From positions 1-64,000 of the forward strand of contig JAAYUC010000006.1 of NCBI GenBank assembly GCA_012517865.1: 64,000 nucleotides of DNA. Reading direction: 5' to 3'. The notes under the pieces were generated by a model. The model searched no databases. It saw only the letters and a list, made by a program, of their open reading frames with translations, and was not told where the DNA came from. Made by a program: the position numbers and the translations under genes. How positions within the stretch are numbered: the stretch's first letter is position 1; the number at the start of each line of letters is the position of its first letter. The DNA comes from Chloroflexota bacterium. GTDB taxonomy: Bacteria; Chloroflexota; Anaerolineae; Anaerolineales; Anaerolineaceae. Below are positions 49,483-59,301 of this stretch, in pieces.

Positions 49483-49710
49483 TTGAGCAGTGCGCCTGAG
49501 CCCGCTGAGGAACTCCCCGCGCAGCCCGACTCTTTGCCCGGCAGCAAAAGACAGGAAAAATCCTTGCGCGTGTGCGGTCCAAGCAGCTCGCTCTCGCTGA
49601 GGTACGGCCTGCCGTGCCCCTTCTGCCTGATTGGCCGGGTGGATTATGACAGTCAGCTCAATCTGGTTTGCGCCAATTGCGGAAAAACCCAAACAGGTAC
49701 TTTTACCTGA
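49483..49710 (+). CDS. Small zinc-ribbon protein
   Basis: The 75-residue product has CPFC and CANC pairs about 18 residues apart, a typical zinc ribbon. The N-terminus is acidic and Pro-rich (SSAPEPAEELPAQPDS). The start is TTG 49483, where GGAGG stands 5 nt upstream; a GTG at 49462 would add 7 residues with a weaker site. Function is unknown. It lies between tsaD and the OsmC gene in the same direction. Confidence 0.65.
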   Translation: MSSAPEPAEELPAQPDSLPGSKRQEKSLRVCGPSSSLSLRYGLPCPFCLIGRVDYDSQLNLVCANCGKTQTGTFT

Positions 49711-49756
49711 TAAGATTAAATCATCCGGTCAGTTGACTGGAGAGAACGGAGGAATA

Positions 49757-50173
49757 ATGGAAGCAAAGGCAGTATGGCAGGGAGATATGAGTTTTTTGGG
49801 CAGCGCGGATACTGGTTTTACGCTGAAAATGGATTCCGCGGAAGTCGCGGGCGGCCACGATGACGGCTTCAGACCCACCGAACTGTTAGCCATTGGCACG
49901 GCAGGATGCACAGCCATGGATGTGATTTCCATCCTCAAAAAGAAACGCGCCGAGGTAATCGCTTTTGAGGTGCGCGCTCACGTGGACAAGGCGGAGACTT
50001 ACCCAAAAGTCTTTACCCGCATGCACCTTACCTATGTTGTCACCGGGCATGGAATTAAGCCGGAGGATGTGGAACGCGCGGTACAGCTCTCCGAAGAAAA
50101 GTACTGCCCCTGCATCGCCATGTTCCGTCAGGTCTTGGAACTGACGCGGGAGATTCAAATCATCGAAGCGTAA
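49757..50173 (+). CDS. OsmC/Ohr family protein
   Basis: The 138-residue protein has the OsmC pattern FRPTELLAIGTAGCTAMDV with the first redox Cys, and the second in KYCPCIAMF. Family members reduce organic hydroperoxides; the small YhfA-type subgroup has less certain activity. GGAGGAAT lies directly before ATG 49757. An in-frame earlier start at 49631 overlaps the zinc-ribbon gene and was rejected. Confidence 0.9.
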   Translation: MEAKAVWQGDMSFLGSADTGFTLKMDSAEVAGGHDDGFRPTELLAIGTAGCTAMDVISILKKKRAEVIAFEVRAHVDKAETYPKVFTRMHLTYVVTGHGIKPEDVERAVQLSEEKYCPCIAMFRQVLELTREIQIIEA

Positions 50174-52150: not shown

Positions 52151-53761
52151 ATGGAAGATTACAACACGAATTCCCAAGCGGAGCCGTCCGCGGAGAGTAA
52201 ACCCGACTCAGCGGCCCTCCAGCCTGAAACAAACCTGATAGAAGACCGCCGGCCTGAAAAAAGCTGGTACAAGCAGCCGGGCAGCATTGCCGCGCTGCTG
52301 ATGATTCTGGCAGCGATGGTTCTCCTGACTGCCTGGCTGACCGGAAAACCTGGAGAAGAGACAGCTGCCCCCATGCCAGGCGCCGCCGCGCTGAACGCAC
52401 CCTTACTGACCTTTGAGACCGACATCCCGACGCCCACAGCAACACTTCAGCCCACCGCGCAGCCCACAGCGCAACAGGCCCGCACGGAAGTGATAACTTA
52501 TGTCATCCAGGAGGGAGACTCGATTTTTTCCATCGCTTCCAAATTCAATCTCGCGCCCGAAACAATCTTATGGTCCAACCGCTATGAATTAGGTGACGAC
52601 CCTTCGGTTTATACCCCCGGCGTATCCATCTATATTCTGCCGGTGGACGGGGTTTACCATATCTGGCAGCAAGGCGAAGGCCTGAATGGGGTTTCTGAAT
52701 TTTACGGGGTCACTCCGGATGTCATTATCGACTATCCAGGCAACAAACTGGACCGGGCGACGCTTGGCAATCTTTCGCTCCCCAACATCGCTCCGGGTAC
52801 ACGGCTGGTAGTCCCTGGAGGAACCCGCCCCGAAACCGTCTCCGCTGACAGCCTGCTCACCTACGCGGCACTCACGCAAATTGAGAAAATTCCCGTCGGA
52901 GACCCAAGCACTTACCCCGCTCCGCGCAAAGAAATCATCGCTTATGTGGTGCAGCCGCAGGACACGCTTTTCACTATCGCGGATAAGTTTGGCCTGACGC
53001 CCGAGACGGTCTTGTGGGCAAACCGCTACCTGCTTGGGGATACTCCGGATGGAATCATTCCAGGTCAAAAGCTTTTTATTCTGCCGGATAACGGTGTTTA
53101 TCATGGTTGGAGCTACAAAGAGAACCTTGACAAGGTCGCTTCTTTTTACAACGTCAGCCGCGACGTGATTTTGGACGAACCCTTAAATCAGCTGGACCGC
53201 AACAAATTTCCAGACCTGAGTCACCCGAACATCAAAGCCGGCACGCTGCTCTACGTCCCGGGTGGGACCCGCCCGCCGGTGACCTGGGTTACTCCGGTAG
53301 GACCAGGCGAGGACGGCATTGGCGAGCACCCCAACGTTTCCTATCTGGGCGCGTATGCCTGCAACAGCACTGCCTGGGCGGTTGGCACCGGAAGCTGGCA
53401 GTTCCCGACCTCAGAGCACTGGATTTCGGGCTATGAATACACACCGCCTACACACAACGGGTTGGATTATGCCGGCCGGATGGGATACGAAATCTACGCC
53501 GCTGATTCTGGCGTCATCATTTACTCCGGCTGGTCAACCCGCGGTTATGGCAACACCATCGTCATTGACCACGGCAACGGTTATCTCTCGCTTTACGCCC
53601 ATCTGATGGACGGAGGCATGGTGCAGGGCTGCGGCGTGGAGGTTTCCGCCGGCCAGCTCATTGGCTACATGGGTTCCACCGGCAAAAGCACCGGCCCGCA
53701 CCTGCATTTTGAAATCCGGTATAACGGTTCGCCCGTCAACCCGCACGACCTGGGTTTGTAA
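52151..53761 (+). CDS. Membrane-anchored LysM/M23 endopeptidase
   Basis: The 536-residue protein has a cytosolic N-terminus, one membrane helix (about 47-66), a Pro/Thr linker and two LysM-like modules (starting YVIQEGDSIFSIASKF and YVVQPQDTLFTIADKF), each with an extra repeat. The C-terminal M23 domain carries all expected residues: HNGLDYA (zinc His and Asp), LYAHL and GPHLHFEI (zinc HxH). It should cut peptidoglycan cross-bridges. It differs from the three convergent paralogues, which lack the first His. Confidence 0.9.
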   Translation: MEDYNTNSQAEPSAESKPDSAALQPETNLIEDRRPEKSWYKQPGSIAALLMILAAMVLLTAWLTGKPGEETAAPMPGAAALNAPLLTFETDIPTPTATLQPTAQPTAQQARTEVITYVIQEGDSIFSIASKFNLAPETILWSNRYELGDDPSVYTPGVSIYILPVDGVYHIWQQGEGLNGVSEFYGVTPDVIIDYPGNKLDRATLGNLSLPNIAPGTRLVVPGGTRPETVSADSLLTYAALTQIEKIPVGDPSTYPAPRKEIIAYVVQPQDTLFTIADKFGLTPETVLWANRYLLGDTPDGIIPGQKLFILPDNGVYHGWSYKENLDKVASFYNVSRDVILDEPLNQLDRNKFPDLSHPNIKAGTLLYVPGGTRPPVTWVTPVGPGEDGIGEHPNVSYLGAYACNSTAWAVGTGSWQFPTSEHWISGYEYTPPTHNGLDYAGRMGYEIYAADSGVIIYSGWSTRGYGNTIVIDHGNGYLSLYAHLMDGGMVQGCGVEVSAGQLIGYMGSTGKSTGPHLHFEIRYNGSPVNPHDLGL

Positions 53762-53782
53762 CAGAAACGTTCTGGAAAGCAG

Positions 53783-53812
53783 ACAGGCTGTCAGCAAGAC
53801 AGCCTGTTTTTA
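53783..53812 (+). terminator. Terminator after the M23 endopeptidase gene
   Basis: ACAGGCTGTC/GACAGCCTGT makes a 10-bp stem with loop AGCAA followed by TTTTTAT. It also stands 3' of the convergent paralogue. Confidence 0.88.
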
Positions 53813-53834: not shown

Positions 53835-55310
53835 TTATTTCCGGGTAATCATGCTGCTGGAAGGGGAGTCGACACTGGCTGTGACGACCTCATCCCCGCG
53901 AACCAGCTGCCCCAGGTAAGCGCGGCTGCCTTCCACAGGCGTCCAACCATCCATATTGAAAGGCAGAAAACCTGTTGCGGAAATCCATTCCCCATTGTAC
54001 TTGCGCGCGATATGCAGATGCGTGCCAGTCGCCTGCCCGCCTTCACAGGACGGATGACCGATGGGGTCGCCCTGTTTTACATGAGTTCCCAGCGCCACGC
54101 GGCCTTCCTGGGCAATATGCAAGTAGAAAATGTTCCAGCCGGTGCGTTCATCTCCATCGCCGTCCAGGTCCAGTACCGCGGTACCGGGACCAGTCCGGAC
54201 TATCACGCCATCCGCAACAGCGACAGCCACTTCGTTAGTTCCCACGCAGCCCTTAGAGCCGACCGGCGGGGCCAGGTCAATCGCGGCATACGGCTTCAGA
54301 TTTCCCCAACCGGTGTGCGGTCCGCCGGTATAAGACCACGTGGTGCCCATGCGGAAGGGTAAAATAAACTGCGGCTGGGTCAGGCTGCCGGGCAGCACGG
54401 TGGTATTGCCCTGCCAGGGGTCTCCAAACATTTCCCGGTAGGTTTTCGCGAAGCCGTCCGGTCCTATGGCGCGTTTGTACTCCTCGCCGTCCAGAAACAA
54501 CGAAAAGAAGTACTGCAGCGCCACTGTGCCGGCATTTTGCCAGGGGTCAATGTTTTCAATCTCACCATTCAGGTGCGTGATAGATGTCAGCTCACCCTGT
54601 CTGTAACGGTAGTAACCGTCGTTCAACAAGTCAGCGCTGTGAGAAAGCTGCAGGTAGACCCCGGTGTAGACATCTTCGGGCATAATCAGCGTCAATTCGG
54701 CGGAACGGTCCCGCGTGGGGTTGCTAAGAGCCTGCGCCCGGTATTCCAGCAGGGCCAGCAGCAGCCTCGGATTGATGCTGTAATTCTCTCCCAACCATTG
54801 GAGCAAGTCCGCCGCGTCTTTATACTCCGCCTGAATGTAGGAGCCGTACTGCTTGTACCAGCCCGGGCTGGATTCCACGAATGCCCGCAAGTCAAAACCA
54901 ATCAGGTCGGGACCATACACAAAAGCGGAGTCAGGAATAATCTGGTACGCTGTTCCCCATAACGGCTTGTAATAGATTGGCATTTTCATCGGGAAACCGG
55001 GCGGCAGTGTGGCTGTGGATTCCGGTATTTCAGGGTTTGCCCACAGAATTTCCTGAACGGTCGCGCCAAAACGAACGGACAATAAATGCAGGGTGTCCCC
55101 GCTTTGAGCGATATAATCCACCAGGGTTCCGGGCGCGTAAACCGGGCGGGCGGGGAAAGGCGTAGAGGTAGGCAGTTCCGCCTCCTCCGTTTGCTGCGCG
55201 GCTGTAACAATGTATGTGGGTCGGGCTGTCGTGCAAGCGCTGGTGAAAAGGACAAGCGCGAGCAGGAACCCTATCCACTTGTGTTTAATTCGGAAGTTAG
55301 AATCCATCAT
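53835..55310 (-). CDS. LysM/M23-like lipoprotein, paralogue 3
   Basis: The 491-residue protein has a lipoprotein signal (lipobox TSAC) and a LysM module (IAQSGDTLHLLSVRFGATV). A central helical region contains the SINPRLLLALLEYRAQAL block shared by the three paralogues. The C-terminal M23-like domain shows GGPHTGWG, AAIDLAPP, FYLHIA and GTHLHIARKYNG. At the HxxxD zinc site the His is a Tyr, whereas HxH is kept; the conserved His of GPHxxWG may replace it. ATG 55310 and ATG 55307 are both possible. It lies 47 nt downstream of paralogue 2. Confidence 0.87.
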   Translation of the reverse strand: MMDSNFRIKHKWIGFLLALVLFTSACTTARPTYIVTAAQQTEEAELPTSTPFPARPVYAPGTLVDYIAQSGDTLHLLSVRFGATVQEILWANPEIPESTATLPPGFPMKMPIYYKPLWGTAYQIIPDSAFVYGPDLIGFDLRAFVESSPGWYKQYGSYIQAEYKDAADLLQWLGENYSINPRLLLALLEYRAQALSNPTRDRSAELTLIMPEDVYTGVYLQLSHSADLLNDGYYRYRQGELTSITHLNGEIENIDPWQNAGTVALQYFFSLFLDGEEYKRAIGPDGFAKTYREMFGDPWQGNTTVLPGSLTQPQFILPFRMGTTWSYTGGPHTGWGNLKPYAAIDLAPPVGSKGCVGTNEVAVAVADGVIVRTGPGTAVLDLDGDGDERTGWNIFYLHIAQEGRVALGTHVKQGDPIGHPSCEGGQATGTHLHIARKYNGEWISATGFLPFNMDGWTPVEGSRAYLGQLVRGDEVVTASVDSPSSSMITRK

Positions 55311-55357
55311 GACAAACCTGGTGGTTAACGCCCCAAATATACCACAAACCGAATGGT

Positions 55358-56929
55358 TTATTCCCAGCGGCTGATATGCGAGGGGGTAGCACTGTATCTG
55401 TTGGAGCGGATGACTTCCCCGCCGCTGATGAGCCAGCCCTGGTAAGGTACCGACGCGGCTTTGGCAATCCACCCGCTGAGGTTGAATGCCAGGGGCCCGT
55501 CCGCTGGTATCCACTCACCGTTGTATTTGCGGGCGATGTGCAGGTGGGTTCCGGTTGAAATGCCCCCCTCGCAAGAGGGATGTCCAATCCGCCCGCCTTT
55601 TTCCACCCATTCACCAACCTTAATCCGATGGGTCGTCCCCACATGCAGGTAAACGATGTTCCAACCGGTTTCCTCTTTGCCGTCCCCGTCCAGGTCAATC
55701 ACCACGGTACCGTTATCGGAACGCACCACCAGCCCGGCAGAGGAGGCGGTAATCCAGGTGCTGTTCGGAAGGCAGCCGGGCGCGTCTGCCGGCGGGGCAA
55801 AATCGAGGGCCGCGCGCACCTCAACCGCACCCCAGGCCGCGTGCGGACCGCTGGTGTAGGACCAGACAATACCGCTCTCAAACGGCAAATCCAGCGGAGG
55901 TTGTTCCATCCCCGGCGTAAATAAGGAAGGATATTCCTGCGCTATCAGCCAGGGATTGCCAAACATCGATTCGTAGGTGGCGAGCAAACTGCGGTCGGAA
56001 TACAGGGCCTGGTTCCAGGCATCCTGGTTGCGCGTCTGCGCAAAGTAGTACATCCAGGCAACTGTGGCGCAGTTTAGTTCCGGCGCCAGGCGCAAGGTGC
56101 TGCCGTCAGGGAAGGTGAGCGCCAGCAAAGTGCCTTCCCGCCAGCCGTAATAACCGGTGCCGAGTTTGCCGGCAGCCAAAACCAGCTGCTTGTAAAGTCC
56201 GGTCTGTCCGGATTCCTTCAGGCCCAGCGGGTAATAAAGCTGGTCCTGTGTGGCAGGGCTGCCGTAAACCCAACCGCTTTCATATTCCAAAAGCGCCAGC
56301 AAAAGACGCGGATGGATGGAATAATCGCGCGCGACCCGCTGAATGATTTGCGTGCCGTTCATGATGCCGTTGGCATAGACGCTTTCCTGGTAATTGGCAA
56401 GTTTTCCGCCCGCCTGGGAAATGAAAGCCTCCAGGTCAAAGTCCAGCGCGCTGGGAGAATTCACCACTTCGGCGTCTGGAAAGAGCTTGAGGCTGGAACT
56501 GACATTTTCCAGCACTGAAGGAATCAGAAGCAGCTGGCCTTCGGAAATAAAACCGCTGTCGGATAACGGTCCGGTACTGCTGATATCGCTGACAGAGACT
56601 CCAAAGCGCAGCGCGAGCACGTCCAGGCTGTCGCCGCTCTGTCCGTAATAAAGAATGGGCGCGTTCTGGCTGGCCGCGACGGCCGGAGCTTGATTGGCCA
56701 GCACCGCCGGTTCCGGCGTGATATCGACGGATTCTTCCGGCAGAGGCGCTTCGGTAATCTCAGGCAGCTGCGCCAGAACAATGGGTGGGGCCGCGGTCTC
56801 ATCCGCGGCTTTATTCGCAGCCACCTTTTCCGGGGCTTTAAAGGGCAGTACCAAAACCGCGCCAACGCAAACAGCCAGCACAAGCACGCCAAGGAATAAA
56901 CGCTGCGTCTTCCGCCTGCGCCGGGCAGC
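55358..56929 (-). CDS. LysM/M23-like membrane protein, paralogue 2
   Basis: The protein has about 523 residues with a basic N-terminus (MAARRRRKTQ), one membrane helix and an acidic/Pro linker. A LysM-like module (YGQSGDSLDVLALRFG) is followed by the shared central block (SIHPRLLLALLEYESGW) and an M23-like domain with SGPHAAWG, AALDFAPP, VYLHVG and GTHLHIARKYNG. The HxxxD His is an Arg here. ATG 56929 was chosen: AAAGG is 9 nt upstream and this start leaves a 31-nt gap to the previous gene. In-frame ATGs at 56992 and 57019 would overlap it. Confidence 0.87.
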   Translation of the reverse strand, partial: AARRRRKTQRLFLGVLVLAVCVGAVLVLPFKAPEKVAANKAADETAAPPIVLAQLPEITEAPLPEESVDITPEPAVLANQAPAVAASQNAPILYYGQSGDSLDVLALRFGVSVSDISSTGPLSDSGFISEGQLLLIPSVLENVSSSLKLFPDAEVVNSPSALDFDLEAFISQAGGKLANYQESVYANGIMNGTQIIQRVARDYSIHPRLLLALLEYESGWVYGSPATQDQLYYPLGLKESGQTGLYKQLVLAAGKLGTGYYGWREGTLLALTFPDGSTLRLAPELNCATVAWMYYFAQTRNQDAWNQALYSDRSLLATYESMFGNPWLIAQEYPSLFTPGMEQPPLDLPFESGIVWSYTSGPHAAWGAVEVRAALDFAPPADAPGCLPNSTWITASSAGLVVRSDNGTVVIDLDGDGKEETGWNIVYLHVGTTHRIKVGEWVEKGGRIGHPSCEGGISTGTHLHIARKYNGEWIPADGPLAFNLSGWIAKAASVPYQGWLISGGEVIRSNRYSATPSHISRWE

Positions 56930-56960
56930 CATGCGCCGCTGCCTTTCCGCGCGCGAGCAG

Positions 56961-58544
56961 TTAACGTCCGATGGCGTTGAAATCGGCACGGCCATTGAAA
57001 GCTTCAACGGTTTGTCCATTTTTTACCAGATACCCATCATATTCAATCCCAGCGCTTTCGCTGGTCCAACCACTGAGCACAAACGGAACCTCTCCGTCCG
57101 CGGAAATCCAAACGCCGTTGTAACGCCTGGCCAGGTGCAAATGCGTACCGGTTGAGAAACCGCCTTCACAGGAGGGGTAGCCAATCAGGTCACCCTGACG
57201 CAGATAAGTCCCCGCAGCAGCTCTGCCTTCAGAGGCGATGTGAAGGTACAGGAGCGACCAGCCTGTCTGTTCTCTACCGTCGCCGTCCAGATCTTGAACC
57301 ACCACGCCATTTCCAGAGCGCACTACCATGCCGTCGGCAGCAGCCACTACGGGGGTCTTGCTTTCGTAACATCCAAATTCCTCGCCGGGCGGGGCGAAAT
57401 CGATACCCGCGTAGGCAGAGCCTGTTCCCCAGCCGACGTGGGGCCCGCCGGTAAAGTACCAGGTATCGCCGGCCGAGAAGGGCAGCATGAGCTCGGGCTG
57501 CGTAATATTTTCCGGAACCAGGGGTTCAATGGAAAAGGCGAAAGGAAAGCCAAAAAGTCGTTCATAAACCGCGTAAAATCCTGCCGGAGAAACCGCCGTT
57601 TTCCAATCCGCTTTATCCAAAAGAAGGCTCATCAGATATTGAATGCCGGCCGTGGCGCCGTTGATAGTGGCATCCGCGCGCATCACGGTGCCGTCGGAAA
57701 GCGTCCACACCGCAACGGCGGAATTTTCCCAGAGCGTGTATCCGCGCGTCATTTCATTGGCCGCCCAGCTGAGCTGTTTATAAAGTCCCTTGCGGTTGGC
57801 GTCCTTAAGCCCCAGCGGATAATCTTCTGATACAGCGGTTTTGCCCTGCGAGCTGACCCACCCGCTGCGGTATTCCAGCACTGCCAGCAGCAGCCGCGGG
57901 TTGATGGAAAATTCCTCAGCCACGCGCTGCACAATCTCAGCACCGCTTAGAGCCGTACCATCCTCCAGGGTCTCAGAGTAAGTGCTCAGCCTGCCCCCGA
58001 ACTGCGCGGATATCGCGAGCGTGTCGAAACCGAGCGCGGAAGGGCTGTAAAACAATTCCGAGTCGGGGATGATTTTAAAGTTGGTTGCCAGCTCGTTCGC
58101 GCTGGCTGGCGGAATAATCAGCTTCTGACCTGGTTCAATCAGATTGGGGTCTTTAATATCCGGGTTGGATGCCAGGATTTGTCCGATAGAAACCTGATGC
58201 CGCAGCGCTATCCGGGCCAGGGAATCACCGGAGACCACGATGTATTCGTCAGTTTGCGCACGCAGCGTGGGCAAAATCGCCGGGGAATTTGGCGTGGGCG
58301 TCGGACCGCCAGGGGCTGGTGTGATGGTAATCCGGGGAAGCTCGGGAGAGGCGCTCTTTGCCAGGGTGTTTACCGGAGTCGGAGTCGCGTTGATGCGCGC
58401 CCCCTGGGGCACCTGCCACGGGTCATAGTTGGCGATGGGACGGTAACAGCCCCCCAGCAGAGCCAATGCCAGGGAAGCGCAAATAATCACGAAAAGCGCG
58501 CGTCTGGTAGAACTGAGGTGCTGGAAAAGAGGTTTCGGTCTCAT
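56961..58544 (-). CDS. LysM/M23-like lipoprotein, paralogue 1
   Basis: The 527-residue protein has a lipoprotein signal (lipobox LGGC) and a Pro/Thr-rich linker. Its LysM module (VVSGDSLARIALRHQ, ending EPGQKLIIPP) precedes the shared central block SINPRLLLAVLEYRSGW and an M23-like domain with GGPHVGWG, AGIDFAPP, LYLHIA and GTHLHLARRYNG. The HxxxD His is a Tyr. It heads the three-gene array, with all members in the same direction and similar domain order, which points to tandem duplication. Confidence 0.88.
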   Translation of the reverse strand: MRPKPLFQHLSSTRRALFVIICASLALALLGGCYRPIANYDPWQVPQGARINATPTPVNTLAKSASPELPRITITPAPGGPTPTPNSPAILPTLRAQTDEYIVVSGDSLARIALRHQVSIGQILASNPDIKDPNLIEPGQKLIIPPASANELATNFKIIPDSELFYSPSALGFDTLAISAQFGGRLSTYSETLEDGTALSGAEIVQRVAEEFSINPRLLLAVLEYRSGWVSSQGKTAVSEDYPLGLKDANRKGLYKQLSWAANEMTRGYTLWENSAVAVWTLSDGTVMRADATINGATAGIQYLMSLLLDKADWKTAVSPAGFYAVYERLFGFPFAFSIEPLVPENITQPELMLPFSAGDTWYFTGGPHVGWGTGSAYAGIDFAPPGEEFGCYESKTPVVAAADGMVVRSGNGVVVQDLDGDGREQTGWSLLYLHIASEGRAAAGTYLRQGDLIGYPSCEGGFSTGTHLHLARRYNGVWISADGEVPFVLSGWTSESAGIEYDGYLVKNGQTVEAFNGRADFNAIGR

Positions 58545-58710: not shown

Positions 58711-58721
58711 ATTACTCTCAT

Positions 58722-58806
<85 letters not shown>

Positions 58807-58809
58807 CAA

Positions 58810-58836
58810 ACGCAACCTAACCGGTTGCGTTTTTTA
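58810..58836 (+). terminator. Intrinsic terminator after tRNA-Leu
   Basis: ACGCAACC (58810-58817) pairs with GGTTGCGT (58823-58830), then a T-run. It follows the tRNA by 3 nt. Confidence 0.9.
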
Positions 58837-58872
58837 TTGTCAGAGAAGCAGCCCCGCGGCCCGCTAAGACGG

Positions 58873-58881
58873 TGGTACAAT
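58873..58881 (+). promoter_or_regulatory. Extended -10 promoter before the FtsB-like gene
   Basis: TGG plus TACAAT (58876-58881) lies 21 nt upstream of ATG 58903. The SD is weak. Confidence 0.5.
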
Positions 58882-58902
58882 AGTTGCAACGGATTCAAGC
58901 AA

Positions 58903-59301
58903 ATGAAAAGCATTTTGGAAAAAATAAAGCAAATCAAGTGGGCTGACCGGCGCGTTTTCTTAGTTATCGCCATTGTGATTCTGGTTTTCCTGATGATGGA
59001 TTTTAATAACCGCATGGTGCGCTCTCTCAAACTGGAAAAACAGGAACAACAGCTCATATCCCGCGTCGCGGCCCTGGAACAGACCAAGCAGCAGCTTCTG
59101 GCGGATATCGCTTATGCCAATTCCGACCGGGCTGTGGAAGAATGGGCGCGCGAAGAAGCAAAGTTGATTAATGAAGGGGATATTCCCATTGTCGTTCGGC
59201 CGCAAACCGGCGCGGCTGCCGCCGCAACCCCCGCTCCGCCGGCAGAGACGGAAGCGCTCTCCCATCTGGAAATCTGGAAACAGCTTTTCTGGGGGGATTA
59301 A
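58903..59301 (+). CDS. FtsB/DivIC-like septum formation initiator
   Basis: The 132-residue protein has a short basic N-terminus and one membrane helix (about 19-33). A coiled coil follows with the leucine-heptad stretch from LKLEKQEQQLISRVAALEQT. The tail is Ala/Pro-rich. This size and layout match the FtsB/DivIC family of division proteins; sequence identity in the family is low, so the call rests on architecture plus the VEEWAREEAKLI segment, which resembles the conserved A-R-E motif of these proteins. Confidence 0.75.
   Translation: MKSILEKIKQIKWADRRVFLVIAIVILVFLMMDFNNRMVRSLKLEKQEQQLISRVAALEQTKQQLLADIAYANSDRAVEEWAREEAKLINEGDIPIVVRPQTGAAAAATPAPPAETEALSHLEIWKQLFWGD

Follow-up and report, generated by a model that had tools for sequence, protein, structure and literature searches.

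The closest solved relatives of the proteins described here are LasA (3IT5), Blp (8AF1), and pseudoalterin (6IK4), bacteriolytic exoenzymes of the M23A type, a group characterized by broad Gly-X endopeptidase activity. The zinc motif of LasA is H(x)12D (PMC9662197), the zinc ligands of Blp are His22, Asp36, and His123 (PMC9783410), and the oxyanion Tyr of M23A enzymes sits in the C-terminal part of the protein (PMC4594094). M23B proteins such as LytM, lysostaphin, DipM, and ShyA have the M23 fold and an HxH motif in common with the proteins described here but differ in HxxxD spacing and in the placement of the oxyanion Tyr in loop 1. Literature searches on M23 with Chloroflexota and LysM and on inactive lytic transglycosylase domains found no paper on this protein family among the results listed.

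Within the window (the whole stretch of 64,000 nucleotides that we analyzed), three real ORFs lie on the minus strand at 56961-58544, 55358-57019, and 53835-55514, encoding the first, second, and third genes of an array that we refer to as g3, g2, and g1. All three ORFs contained LysM and M23 matches and shared 38-41% mutual identity, confirming the three tandem LysM-M23 paralogues reported in the initial annotation. g3 (56961-58544, minus strand) encodes a predicted lipoprotein (LLGGC) with a LysM domain (58110-58244, minus strand; Pfam LysM E 4.7e-14), a putatively lysozyme-like central block, and an M23A-like peptidase domain. g2 (55358-57019, minus strand) combines a hydrophobic N-terminal segment, predicted to lie in the membrane, with a weak LysM match, the central block, and an M23A-like peptidase domain, and g1 (53835-55310, minus strand) encodes a predicted lipoprotein (FTSAC) with a weak LysM match and the same two downstream domains; the lipoboxes and the hydrophobic segment were recognized by eye. 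Although its ORF reaches 55514, g1 probably starts at an ATG near 55310. g2 may start at an ATG at 56932, given that a start at 57019 would overlap g3 by 59 nt. We found no NCBIfam family over the cut-off for g1-g3 and no more promoter-like sites at the array than expected by chance. Convergent with the array is a LysM-LysM-M23B gene (52151-53761, plus strand), which, as the initial annotation stated, keeps the normal HxxxD motif in the form HNGLD. A terminator-like stem-loop (53781-53809, plus strand) lies between this gene and the array.

Analysis of the putative zinc sites verified that the three paralogues keep HxH and lack the His of HxxxD, with the residue four positions before the Asp (Asp-4) being Tyr in g3, Arg in g2, and Tyr in g1. 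The shared His of a GPH motif, previously placed about 13 residues upstream of the Asp, is exactly 13 residues upstream in g1, g2, and g3. The predicted zinc ligands on the minus strand include this GPH His (g3 His369, 57438-57440; g2 His393, 55841-55843; g1 His333, 54315-54317) and the Asp (g3 Asp382, 57399-57401; g2 Asp406, 55802-55804; g1 Asp346, 54276-54278). HLH and YLH motifs are present in all three proteins. In g3, the HLH motif (57135-57143, minus strand) contains His468, predicted to be catalytic, and His470, a predicted zinc ligand, and His435 of YLH (57240-57242, minus strand) is the equivalent of LasA His81. g3 Tyr502 (57039-57041, minus strand), which aligned to the YDTNC sequence of Blp, is a candidate for the C-terminal oxyanion Tyr of M23A enzymes (LasA Tyr151).

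These residues are nearly invariant across the family. The GPH His and the Asp were each found in 272 of 272 distinct relatives, and among the non-gap rows of the same set, the YxH His was conserved in 269/269 and the two His residues of HxH in 259/261 and 260/261. The position of Tyr502, again by sequence alignment to Blp YDTNC, was Tyr in 235 of 244 non-gap rows. The Asp-4 position was variable (Trp in 133 relatives, Leu in 52, Phe in 34, Arg in 27, Tyr in 16, and Gln in 4), and His was not among these six commonest residues, which account for 266 of the 272 relatives. Such a His/Asp pattern is far beyond chance.

Sequence and structural comparisons placed these domains beside the M23A enzymes. 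In phmmer alignments, the GPH His and the Asp aligned with those of LasA (3it5), pseudoalterin (6ik4), and Blp (8af1), and in a PDB sequence search g1, g2, and g3 each matched LasA and pseudoalterin, with the GPH His falling on the LasA-type His. An AlphaFold2 model of g3 (pLDDT 92, pTM 0.89) returned 8af1, 3it5, and 6ik4 as the top three Foldseek matches. VIA comparison of this model gave Z values of 19.7 for pseudoalterin, 19.5 for LasA, and 18.7 for Blp over 160-161 residues with rmsd of 2.2-2.4, whereas the next M23 proteins, including the M23B proteins LytM, lysostaphin, DipM, and ShyA, reached at most 12.9. The alignment of residues 310-489 of the model with residues 1-173 of 6ik4 (161 aligned residues, Z 19.7, rmsd 2.4) included the C-terminal subdomain. 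H-x12-D, YxH, HxH, the C-terminal subdomain, and the overall fold (Z near 19) are all common to the paralogues and M23A enzymes, with Tyr502 as a candidate counterpart of their oxyanion Tyr, and a CEGGxSTGxHLH stretch of LasA is almost identical in the paralogues. These alignments support the prediction that the GPH His acts as a zinc ligand and corresponds to the His in the known H(x)12D motif of M23A, as the initial annotation had guessed in calling it a possible substitute ligand. What had been described as a shifted zinc site is a layout already known from M23A, the earlier comparison having used M23B HxxxD spacing; the outcome that the initial annotation had itself set against its reading, a standard active M23 enzyme under a different alignment, is the one to which our comparisons point. 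We rejected a novel or decayed zinc site, since H-x12-D is the published motif of LasA, beta-lytic protease, and pseudoalterin.

Other features set the paralogues apart from described M23A enzymes. Whole-domain identity to M23A was only about 26%, and in an iqtree tree of 40 M23 domains, the Anaerolineae paralogues and the M23A references grouped together with a bootstrap of 91, the paralogues being sister to the LasA/Blp group and not inside it. Unlike M23A enzymes, the paralogues are predicted to be cell anchored, have a LysM and a probably lysozyme-like central domain ahead of the peptidase, and carry an extra DxDxDG hairpin and a different cysteine partner. Relative to the two LasA disulfides, they keep one equivalent Cys (in SCEGG), the partner of which lies elsewhere, and lack the second pair; in Blp, one of the two LasA disulfides is formed only partly (PMC9783410). 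The conserved Cys pair of the paralogues (in GC and SCEGG) suggests a disulfide in which one Cys occupies a LasA-like position and the other is a new partner. Because the two-disulfide pattern of LasA, which we did not take to define M23A, does not recur in them, we refer to the family as an M23A-like sister clade with unusual architecture rather than as the LasA/Blp group proper. The DxDxDG motif, DLDGDG in the paralogues (g3, 57276-57293; g2, 55679-55696; g1, 54153-54170; minus strand), falls within the longer sequence DLDGDGxExTG, which fills the loop of a beta hairpin in the g3 model at a point where LasA has a short turn. Its three Asp residues were found in 263, 267, and 269 of the 272 relatives (97-99%). 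DxDxDG motifs bind calcium in many folds, although M23 goes unmentioned in the survey PMC3123361, and the hairpin loop probably binds calcium here as well.

The proteins encoded by g1-g3 are most likely working zinc enzymes that cut the bacterial cell wall, a reading that we favored over loss of activity because the ligands and the catalytic His are invariant or nearly so and because the pattern of decay in a related protein differs. In this sister protein from elsewhere in the phylum (L197:833-2413, plus strand), the GPH His, the Asp, and HxH have all been lost together, and L197 appears from its sequence to be a natural inactive version that illustrates real decay. The conserved ligands may also be compatible with a nonhydrolytic role. 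One such role, raised in the initial annotation, is that of inactive LytM-like regulators of the EnvC/NlpD type, which would have no cutting activity of their own and act by binding and activating other wall enzymes. The missing HxxxD His and the low Pfam M23 scores of g1-g3 (30-39 bits), as in diverged domains, are in keeping with this role, but all zinc and catalytic residues expected of M23A are present and nearly invariant, the M23 domain is far closer to active M23A structures than to EnvC or DipM, and true decay as in L197 strips all ligands together. We found no support for the regulator proposal, which we consider very unlikely. Secreted toxins that lyse other bacteria, as LasA and Blp do, are if anything slightly more improbable. 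The bacteriolytic habit of the closest solved relatives speaks for them, yet the predicted lipoprotein and membrane anchors, the presence of the protein in 146 of 147 genomes of the source organism's family, and a conserved array of fixed order point to upkeep of the cell's own wall.

We also analyzed the central block upstream of the peptidase domain, which lies on the minus strand at 57504-58079 in g3, 55907-56491 in g2, and 54381-54947 in g1. The initial annotation noted this INPRLLLAxLEY-type block as shared and of unknown function; it is indeed shared family-wide and is probably a degenerate lysozyme-like domain. Foldseek matches to a separate model of the block (pLDDT 94.7) were weak throughout, the best having an E of 0.15. 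VIA comparison yielded Z values of 8.3 for MltF, 8.1 for LytB, 7.2 each for GH23 chitinase, autolysin E, goose-type lysozyme, and MltC, and 6.1 for Slt and MltE, within a range of 5.9-8.3 in which any single Z could reflect a common arrangement. Nearly all of these matches were enzymes of the lysozyme superfamily, and our lysozyme-like reading follows from the agreement of the list as a whole and not from single Z values. In hhalign comparisons with a profile of 24 SLT domains, the block scored 28-30 after trimming to shared columns, whereas 100 column shuffles gave at most 20.8 and the reversed profile 14.4; this score depends on trimming, as the untrimmed match was weak. The hhalign alignment lined up an LEY-X-S motif of the block with the catalytic Q-E-S of SLT. 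No match was obtained to GH73 (an alignment of four sequences only), in a PDB sequence search with the block, or in plasmid tblastn searches with the block and with its relative L206, and a Pfam-A scan of 46 central blocks gave no confident family and one weak Glucosaminidase match.

Position X of the LEY-X-S motif, on which the catalytic Glu of SLT falls, is Arg226 in g3 (57867-57869), Glu247 in g2 (56279-56281), and Arg192 in g1 (54738-54740), all on the minus strand. Among 266 relatives, this position was Gln in 170, Arg in 34, and Glu in 33, with Glu confined to the g2 clade. Compared with MltF, LytB, goose lysozyme, Slt, and other GH23/GH73 lysozyme-superfamily enzymes, the block appears to resemble their fold but presents LEY[Q/R/E]S at the catalytic QES, with the Glu mostly replaced, and nearly all copies seen are M23 fusions, stand-alone forms being rare. 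These comparisons make it probable, as a moderate inference, that the central block is lysozyme-like and related to GH23 and that its catalytic Glu was lost in most M23 fusions. A lysozyme-like domain that still cuts glycan would make these proteins bifunctional hydrolases, as would be consistent with fold matches that are nearly all to lysozyme-superfamily enzymes, with Glu at the aligned catalytic position in g2 and 33 of 266 relatives, and with a nearby Glu (E224 in g3) that is 90% conserved. We consider bifunctionality unlikely, since Glu at this position is restricted to the g2 clade and outnumbered by Gln, was found in 0 of the 12 M23B fusions that we sampled among more distant Chloroflexota, and the fold scores are individually weak. 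Among the stand-alone forms, L206:1190-2413 (plus strand) reads IQKEQGL, with Glu at position X, and carries a Golvesin_C domain and no M23; this protein is possibly a catalytically active form of the block. L233, a further relative of L206, reads MQQES and also has Glu at position X.

Considering the sequences, conservation, fold matches, and gene order together, we regard it as highly probable that g1-g3 form an operon-like set encoding anchored peptidoglycan hydrolases, in which a LasA-type M23 domain cuts cross-links and LysM and lysozyme-like modules engage glycan. A lipobox (g3 and g1) or transmembrane segment (g2) would anchor each protein on the outer side of the membrane, and the LysM domain would bind glycan. 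The lysozyme-like domain, which in most copies lacks the catalytic Glu, probably serves to bind the glycan strand or to set its position, and the C-terminal LasA-type M23 domain would cut peptide cross-links. In the peptidase domain, the GPH His and the Asp would coordinate one zinc together with the second HLH His, with water activated by the first HLH His and the YLH His, the C-terminal Tyr stabilizing the intermediate, and the DxDxDG hairpin loop probably both coordinating calcium and stiffening the domain. The three genes may represent an ancient set with divided labor in wall growth or division. A broader proposal, to which we give slightly less than an even chance, is that these are Chloroflexota-specific wall hydrolases in which a lysozyme-like module altered from Glu to Gln or Arg holds glycan and steers an M23A-like or M23B peptidase, with three versions fixed in Anaerolineales. 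The M23A-type reading removes the false lead of a zinc site that is new or dead, and it adds to the LasA-type peptidases a near-universal set, predicted to be cell anchored, from Anaerolineales, an order whose cell walls have received little study. Should the central domain be a lysozyme that became a binding module, the family would offer a clear case for testing how a wall pseudoenzyme guides a peptidase.

The central block was found in 64 of 301 sampled genomes of the phylum. In sampled Anaerolineae, it occurred with an H-x12-D M23 domain, the exceptions being the degenerate L197 and the stand-alone L206, whereas the 12 sampled fusions from more distant Chloroflexota paired it with an H-x3-D M23B domain; two other fusions (L135 and L139) joined it to a LasA-like domain. 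The paralogues formed three clades of 65, 100, and 101 members with supports of 0.996, 0.788, and 0.677, and the order g3>g2>g1 was found in 55 full triplets in Anaerolineales, with none contrary. A fourth family member outside the array, on contig 40 of the same genome (L131:1992-3842, plus strand), retains H-x12-D and DLDGDG.

The commonest upstream neighbor of the array elsewhere, in 33 loci, is a same-strand gene for a polysaccharide-deacetylase-like lipoprotein, as judged by sequence (e.g., L040:3030-4262, minus strand). This neighborhood fits a cell wall role for the array; no copy of the gene lies upstream of the array in the window. An OsmC-like protein is encoded in the window at 49631-50173 (plus strand); in approximately 30 loci, a relative of it is encoded on the opposite strand, downstream of the array. 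Upstream of the array is an FtsB/DivIC-like ORF (58720-59301, plus strand), which recurs in approximately 12 loci. A tRNA-Leu gene (58722-58807, plus strand) overlaps the beginning of this ORF, the true start of which probably lies after the tRNA.
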